Source: Candidatus Kapaibacterium sp. (GTDB taxonomy: Bacteria; Bacteroidota; Ignavibacteria; Kapaibacteriales; NICIL-2). Taken from it: DNA of 64,000 nt. The stretch lies in NCBI GenBank assembly GCA_025055755.1, contig JANWWF010000001.1, forward strand, positions 28,915-92,914. Direction: 5' to 3'. The position numbers were made by a program, and so were the translations under genes. A model generated the notes under the pieces. The model ran no database searches, was not told where the DNA came from, and saw only the letters and a list, made by a program, of their open reading frames with translations. Below, in pieces: positions 29,002 through 30,528 of the stretch; the stretch's first letter is position 1; every line of letters begins with the position of its first letter.

Positions 29002-29358
29002 CTATTTTTCCGATGTGTTCTTCTTCTCTACTGTTGCAATTGCAACCTTTTCAAAGCGAACGCGAACGTTATCAGCTATCTGAACGACAACTGTTTTGTC
29101 GTCGATATCTGTCACCGTCCCGTGAATGCCAGCACTGGTAATCACTCGATCTCCTCTTTTAAGTTCATCGAGCATTTTCTTCATTTCTCGCTGGCGTTTC
29201 TGCTGCGGACGCACAATAAAAAAGTAGAACACAGCAATTATTAGACCAAACATCACCAACGTAGAAATAAGCTGCCCTGTCGGATCAGGTGCAGCAGGTG
29301 ACTGTGCGCGGAGAGCGACTATAGCAGCGAACAACAAGAAGTATATCAGAGGTAGCAT
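29002..29358 (-). CDS. yajC: Preprotein translocase subunit YajC
   Basis: A 118-residue inner-membrane protein associated with SecDF. An N-terminal hydrophobic segment (IYFLLFAAIVALRAQ) that could be a signal is followed by the typical YajC helix (LISTLVMFGLIIAVFYFFIVRPQQKRQ) and a small cytoplasmic domain (GDRVITSAGIHGTV). The tgt-yajC order is common in bacteria and supports the call. Confidence 0.94.
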   Translation of the reverse strand: MLPLIYFLLFAAIVALRAQSPAAPDPTGQLISTLVMFGLIIAVFYFFIVRPQQKRQREMKKMLDELKRGDRVITSAGIHGTVTDIDDKTVVVQIADNVRVRFEKVAIATVEKKNTSEK

Positions 29359-29385: not shown

Positions 29386-30528
29386 TTAGAAGGAGCTTTC
29401 TACTTTGGTATCCGGATAGAACTGCTCCAAAAACTCACCTGACCATTGACGGAAGGTGCCAGCCAGTATTTTCTCCCGCGCGCTTCGTACCAGCCATCGG
29501 TAAAAAGCTAAATTTTGCATTGTGGCAAGAGTTAGTCCCAGTATTTCTCCCGCTACAAACAAATGACGTAGGTAACCAAGCGAGATGGGCTCCACTCCCA
29601 GTTCTTCCCACCGTGGTTCGACAGGAGCTTCTTCATACTTAAAGCGTTGATTGCGAATATTTATCCTGCCCTGTGTTGTAAAGACGGTTCCGTTTCTGGC
29701 ATTTCGCGTAGGCATTACACAATCAAACATGTCAACACCCCGCGCTATTGCCTGCAAAATATTCTGCGGACTGCCTACACCCATCAAGTATCGGGGCTTA
29801 TCAGGTGGAAGCAAGTCTGTTGAAAAATCGACAACATCGTACATGAGTGGTATAGGTTCTCCAACAGCTAATCCGCCAATTGCAAAACCATCGAAAGGGA
29901 GCTGACATAACTGCTCAGTACATGCCTGCCGCAAGTCAAAAAATGTTCCTCCCTGCACAATCCCAAACAGTTGTTGACGATAGGAGTAGTAAAATGGAAT
30001 CTGCTTATGGGCAGAAAGGGACTCTTTAGCCCACTCCACACTTCGTACCATCGCTTCCTTTGCCTGTTGATAAGTCATCGGATAGCCTATACACTCATCA
30101 AGAACCATGATAACATCTGCACCAATTGCACGCTGATACTCAATAACCGCCCATGGAGTGAAGACATGACGGGATCCGTCTATATGCGACCGAAACTCAA
30201 CACCACCGTCAAATACACGGCGGAGCTTATCAAGCGAATACACTTGGAATCCGCCACTGTCGGTCAACAGCGCCCCACTCCACTGCATGAATCGGTGGAG
30301 TCCACCAAACCTGCGAAGCACCTCAGTTCCTGGCCTCAGGTATAAGTGATAAGTGTTTGCCAACAGCATCTTGTAATGAAGCTTTTCTGCCATGCGATGA
30401 TCGAGCGCTTTGATAGCACCCTGGGTCGCTACAGGCATGAAAACAGGAGTTTCTACTGCTCCATGGTCAGTATAAAGAATTCCAGCTCTTGCTTTTGAGT
30501 GCGGATCGTGTGCAATTACCGTGAACAT
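29386..30528 (-). CDS. tgt: tRNA-guanine transglycosylase, zinc site lost
   Basis: Inserts the queuine precursor preQ1 into tRNA at G34. The 380-residue protein keeps the catalytic aspartates in LTDSGGFQ and GVDMFDCVMPTRNARNG. The structural zinc site is gone: where the family has the CxCxxC of PECDCYTC, this protein reads PRWEELGV, and the ligand histidine of TIHNLHFY is a glutamine (TMQNLAFY). The YLRHL segment between them is intact and the segment length is unchanged, so this is substitution and not a frameshift. The overall length is normal. The start overlaps the VanZ-like gene by 13 bases. Confidence 0.9.
   Translation of the reverse strand: MFTVIAHDPHSKARAGILYTDHGAVETPVFMPVATQGAIKALDHRMAEKLHYKMLLANTYHLYLRPGTEVLRRFGGLHRFMQWSGALLTDSGGFQVYSLDKLRRVFDGGVEFRSHIDGSRHVFTPWAVIEYQRAIGADVIMVLDECIGYPMTYQQAKEAMVRSVEWAKESLSAHKQIPFYYSYRQQLFGIVQGGTFFDLRQACTEQLCQLPFDGFAIGGLAVGEPIPLMYDVVDFSTDLLPPDKPRYLMGVGSPQNILQAIARGVDMFDCVMPTRNARNGTVFTTQGRINIRNQRFKYEEAPVEPRWEELGVEPISLGYLRHLFVAGEILGLTLATMQNLAFYRWLVRSAREKILAGTFRQWSGEFLEQFYPDTKVESSF

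Follow-up and report, generated by a model that had tools for sequence, protein, structure and literature searches.

A bacterial tRNA-guanine transglycosylase without zinc ligands in a Kapaibacterium genome, and the absence of the zinc site from most Bacteroidota sampled

The zinc subdomain has been named as a hallmark of the TGT class (PMC6165067), and zinc is reported to be required for the activity of bacterial TGT (PMC9508795); can a tRNA-guanine transglycosylase (Tgt) that keeps none of its four zinc ligands still be a working enzyme? This question is raised by a gene in the window, namely, the whole stretch of 64,000 nucleotides of Candidatus Kapaibacterium sp. DNA analyzed here. The original prediction had placed at 29386-30528 a full-length Tgt in which the zinc ligands were replaced residue for residue. 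These coordinates were borne out, and the strand was established: the gene, tgt for a tRNA-guanine(34) transglycosylase without zinc ligands, lies at 29386..30528 on the minus strand, with the ATG at 30528, the stop at 29386, and a product of 380 amino acids, while the plus-strand frame over the same positions is full of stops. Judged from the sequences of this protein and its relatives, it looks fully functional and is very probably a working, zinc-independent Tgt.

In terms of family identity, the window Tgt matches PF01702 (the Pfam TGT family) at 463.5 bits over 360 residues and belongs to TIGR00430, the NCBI equivalog of bacterial Tgt, with 451.9 bits at a cut-off of 306.75. Its top solved relatives are the structures of Zymomonas Tgt (E about 1e-104). 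TIGR00430 was also matched by all members of a set of 54 Tgt sequences, two of which gave weak matches to DpdA, the window Tgt not being among them. Furthermore, the neighbors of tgt are ordinary housekeeping genes: directly downstream is its usual neighbor, yajC (29002..29358, minus strand), beyond which are ribBA, greA, an HU gene, and a pyrB-type carbamoyltransferase, and upstream are genes for a VanZ-like protein and for NAD(P)HX repair. The gene order in E. coli is queA-tgt-yajC-secD, and the tgt-yajC pair is hence common to E. coli and the window.

The zinc site, CxCxxC-x25-H, was tested as a feature of Tgt membership and is absent from the window Tgt. In alignments made with HMMER against Zymomonas Tgt and with MAFFT against E. 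coli Tgt, the four positions are occupied by W307 (codon TGG, 29608..29610), E309 (GAA, 29602..29604), V312 (GTG, 29593..29595), and Q338 (CAA, 29515..29517), all on the minus strand, which correspond to C318, C320, C323, and H349 in Zymomonas and to C302, C304, C307, and H333 in E. coli, respectively. The spacing X-x-X-x2-X-x25-X is kept, with W-x-E-x2-V-x25-Q in place of the canonical motif, and the replacement that had been claimed is exact in both residues and spacing. A shifted register restoring the ligands was ruled out, as the flanks (YLRHL, E328, and N339) align without gaps; Y319, H322, L323, and N339 around the zinc segment are conserved in 182/182 sequences. Also, a check of close relatives, as had been proposed, found none of the four ligands in any of the five congeners, each from a separate genome (WEVQ in four and WAVQ in one). 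W307, V312, and Q338 do not vary within the genus, E309 is replaced with Ala in one species, and the congeners use different synonymous codons. The agreement of five separate genomes excludes sequencing error and recent decay. Because E309 is Ala in one congener, furthermore, W/E/V/Q is not a new ligand set and is, as the alignments have it, one local version of zinc-site replacement.

How far does this replacement extend? We compared the four ligand columns in 182 distinct Tgts from the window, its genus, order, class, and phylum, Calditrichota, and E. coli. CCCH was found in 41 of them, and the zinc site was missing in 141. Among these 141 Tgts, Cys was left at the first position in 2, at the second in 10, and at the third in 11, and the fourth position was His in 108 and Gln in 33, with no other residue. 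All four ligands were gone in 25 Tgts, including some Bacteroidota outside the order of the window, and the Cys3 motif was absent in all 30 sequences of that order. The site CxCxxC...H is kept by Melioribacteraceae, Calditrichota, E. coli, most of the remaining Ignavibacteria, and one other family, and is absent from Bacteroidia, Flavobacteriia, Cytophagia, Chitinophagia, and Balneolia (in Bacteroidia and Balneolia, from almost every sequence sampled). At the DNA level, we scanned 218 genomes of the phylum with the pattern CxCxxC-x6-Y-[L-type]-x-H and excluded two matches that were not at tgt, G137 by position and G243 as judged from the translated sequence. The pattern was found in 0/18 genomes of the order of the window, in 32/36 others of its class, and in 4/164 of the rest of the phylum, all four in one family; Tgt itself was found in 214 of the 218 genomes. 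The order of the window is Kapaibacteriales-like, given the 87% identity between one of its members and a Kapaibacterium record (L032); in this record, tgt is interrupted by a stop near residue 126, probably an error of MAG assembly or reads.

The original prediction had framed the protein as an oddity of its own, and this framing does not hold given the absence of the Cys3 site from the whole order and from most Bacteroidota sampled. On these comparisons, the loss of the zinc ligands is an old, clade-wide structural change and not a defect of the window gene alone. The zinc site is, moreover, not treated as defining for bacterial Tgt, because it is missing in much of the TIGR00430 equivalog. 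The earlier interpretation is partly supported; the feature that it pointed out is real, but reaches wider and is less exotic than first thought.

A Tgt stripped of every ligand of a reportedly important site might simply be decaying or inactive. The residues for catalysis and substrate binding are, nonetheless, in place. As had been stated, the catalytic aspartates are kept, namely, D90 (D102 in Zymomonas) and D269 (D280), and the base-binding residues D144 (D156), Q192 (Q203), and G219 (G230) are also present; neither the catalytic nor the preQ1-pocket residues vary among the 41 zinc-type and the 141 zinc-lacking Tgts. Within the genus, dN/dS (NG86) is 0.045-0.084 where dS is computable, the remaining comparisons being saturated, and the open reading frames are intact in all congeners. 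The window tgt is under purifying selection. With the Q pathway genes retained as well, decay or inactivity has a negligible probability, and the claim of a real structural change rather than decay or error is upheld by clade-wide conservation, by this selection, and by the intact catalytic and interface residues.

Another reading, which the original prediction had offered beside folding without zinc, is that the substrate has changed (to queuine, DNA, or a different tRNA position) or that a second subunit is needed. It is favored by the fact that the lost site helps form the tRNA-binding scaffold in known TGTs (PMC6165067), but the pocket and the interface point the other way. The determinants of preQ1 versus queuine are C158 and V233 in Zymomonas Tgt (PMC3660597), and both are kept, as C146 and V222, so that the pocket is of the bacterial preQ1 type. 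The aromatic hot spot of the dimer interface in Zymomonas Tgt is composed of F92, W326, Y330, and H333 (PMC5395182); F80, Y319, and H322 keep three of these and I315 replaces W326, with E328 (E339) and K40 (K52) as further interface residues kept. Also, the score of the window Tgt against the archaeosine TgtA model TIGR00432 (130.6 bits) is below the cut-off of 350, and the window Tgt has no match at E 0.001 to NF041059, the model of DpdA for DNA 7-deazaguanine insertion.

The rest of the genome, which is 99.2% complete, bears on the same question. It contains one TGT-family gene, and no second, zinc-bearing copy of Tgt was found in it. The rest of the queuosine (Q) pathway was sought as had been suggested, in a search that covered FolE, QueD, QueC, QueF, QueA, and QueG, and QueD, QueC, QueF (QueF-II), QueG, two QueA, and a FolE homologue scoring just under the curated cut-offs are all encoded. 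With a single TGT-family gene beside QueF and QueA, preQ1 from QueF can reach the substrate of QueA only via the window Tgt. A changed partner or substrate is thus not borne out and is highly improbable: the genome has only one TGT-family gene, along with QueA and genes for making preQ1 de novo, and the protein has an intact pocket of the preQ1 type and a mostly kept interface. A general saving of zinc throughout the Q pathway was considered as well and ruled out, the other zinc segments of the pathway being kept: by eye, metal-binding segments are retained in QueC (CxnCxxCxxC), QueD (HGH-type), and FolE (Cys/His), so that the loss is confined to the structural zinc of Tgt and does not extend to the use of zinc by the pathway. 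A literature search for mass-spectrometry evidence of Q in tRNA of Bacteroidota gave nothing useful. The two QueA genes are on contig C59 of the same genome, L112 at 1420-2532 on the plus strand and L113 at 1489-2922 on the minus strand; both are above the cut-off of the NCBI equivalog NF001140 (345 and 349 bits versus 324), and the second is the longer one and contains an insertion when compared with this model.

What, then, could hold the subdomain together? An AlphaFold model of the window Tgt, for which 54 homologues were supplied, has a pLDDT of 90.0 and a pTM of 0.91, and the pLDDT blocks covering residues 301-340 are 87, 91, 94, and 91, those of the corresponding part of a CCCH relative being 93-98. 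The model superposes on Zymomonas Tgt with a TM of 0.92-0.93 and an rmsd of about 1.8 at about 45% identity, and the (beta/alpha)8 barrel with the inserted C-terminal helical subdomain is predicted to be present, as in other members of the family. The zinc subdomain is, therefore, predicted to persist and to be confidently folded, although a model made without zinc and with homologues as input is not independent proof of the fold. Folding without zinc, the first option of the original prediction, is supported by this confident prediction and by the presence of only one Tgt alongside nearly all of the Q pathway. No solved structure of a zinc-lacking Tgt was identified; entries 10fa-c aside, the nearest solved matches to the window Tgt and to a Bacteroidales Tgt are those of Zymomonas.

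A metal might still be bound at a remodelled site, composed of the acidic residues E299, E300, E304, E308, E309, and E313 or of the conserved H322. Indeed, the segment is Glu-rich in the window Tgt and H322 is invariant; this His is, however, equally invariant in the zinc-type Tgts and corresponds to H333 of the dimer interface in Zymomonas. Also against a remodelled site, which we regard as quite unlikely, one congener has Ala in place of E309, there is free variation at positions 299-313 within the order, and four residues of the loop are missing from two relatives in the phylum. The loop length is fixed in 41/41 CCCH Tgts and differs in 5 of 142 zinc-lacking Tgts (142 including L032), as would be expected without a constraint of the metal on the loop. 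The deletion of four residues in the former cysteine loop is found in the Bacteroidota Tgts L057 and L095, before YMRHL/YLRHL.

We thus consider it highly likely that the window encodes an active, zinc-independent tRNA-guanine(34) transglycosylase, in which hydrophobic and hydrogen-bonding packing has replaced the structural zinc site; the absence of metal, the catalysis, and the packing are what we infer. The enzyme would exchange G34 for preQ1 in tRNAs with GUN anticodons by the usual TIM-barrel mechanism, with D269 as the putative nucleophile and D90 as the putative acid/base, and is probably the usual homodimer. The C-terminal helical subdomain, pinned by zinc in other Tgts, may instead be held by side-chain packing. 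At ligand 1, Cys would give way to a large hydrophobic residue, which is W307 here; 29 of the 30 sequences of the order have L, I, V, F, or W at this position, and in other zinc-lacking groups it is F or L in several and Gly in Flavobacteriia and many Bacteroidia. Ligand 3 appears to be replaced by V312, where zinc-lacking Tgts usually have Ser (mostly Ser or Asp), and Q338 at ligand 4 probably gives a hydrogen bond instead of metal coordination, the His or Gln of other zinc-lacking Tgts being a likely hydrogen-bond donor in the same way. As zinc is reported to be required in bacterial TGT, its loss could still cost stability or activity.

Compared with known systems, the window Tgt shares the fold, length, catalytic aspartates, preQ1 pocket, most dimer-interface residues, and tgt-yajC neighborhood of the bacterial Tgts of TIGR00430 (Zymomonas mobilis and E. 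coli) and differs from them in lacking all four zinc ligands at the same spacing. A similar situation is seen in the zinc-free pZBD of bacterial GluRS, an unrelated protein, where the structural zinc of a tRNA enzyme is also lost in many bacteria with the fold kept. This zinc-free domain keeps its fold through hydrogen bonds and stacking, and when swapped into E. coli GluRS, the enzyme was as functional as the wild type (PMC4381286); the function of GluRS is shown by experiment, whereas that of the window Tgt is deduced. The eukaryotic TGT subunits QTRT1 and QTRT2 have the TIM barrel and an equivalent C-terminal subdomain, but both keep zinc (PMC6165067), unlike the window Tgt. QTRT2 has lost the catalytic residues with zinc kept, and the window Tgt has the opposite pattern. 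In the open-access literature, no published report of a zinc-lacking Tgt was found, which counts as weak evidence for novelty. If Bacteroidota in general can dispense with zinc in Tgt, the Tgt step of Q modification would be zinc-independent there, Tgt should be annotated as a zinc protein only where the motif is present, and results of inhibitor work on the Tgt dimer or zinc subdomain would not be transferable unchecked to these bacteria.

How often the site was lost was examined on trees built without the zinc segment, a quick tree of 182 rows and a careful tree of 59 rows. The zinc label needs five changes on either tree, the starred branches force at least two, and a single change was seen in 0/200 bootstrap trees. 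When the zinc-lacking rows were forced into one clade, the cost was 30 log units with AU p = 0.053; several losses are likely, with a single origin not formally rejected at this value. In the lineage of the window, the loss of zinc appears to be ancient, dating back to the ancestor of the order or further, with loss also elsewhere in the phylum. It is conceivable, if somewhat short of probable, that Tgt lost its structural zinc several times independently by the same kind of replacement (ligand 1 hydrophobic, ligand 3 small polar, and ligand 4 His or Gln only), the zinc enzymes QueC, QueD, and FolE of the Q pathway keeping theirs. Tgt would then be a natural series showing how packing comes to replace a metal cross-link. 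The role of zinc is open to a direct test on sister enzymes of which one has the site and the other lacks it, for example, L118 (CCCH) and L213 (FSNH), which belong to one family and are paired at 95/92.

In three genomes of genus g110 in family f42 (G179, G224, and G227; 99% complete), no TGT-family match was found, suggesting loss of tRNA queuosine there. In the class of the window, furthermore, G214:C1 (L212 / L153, around 1701759) has a second, very divergent TGT homologue with CCCH on an extremely long branch.
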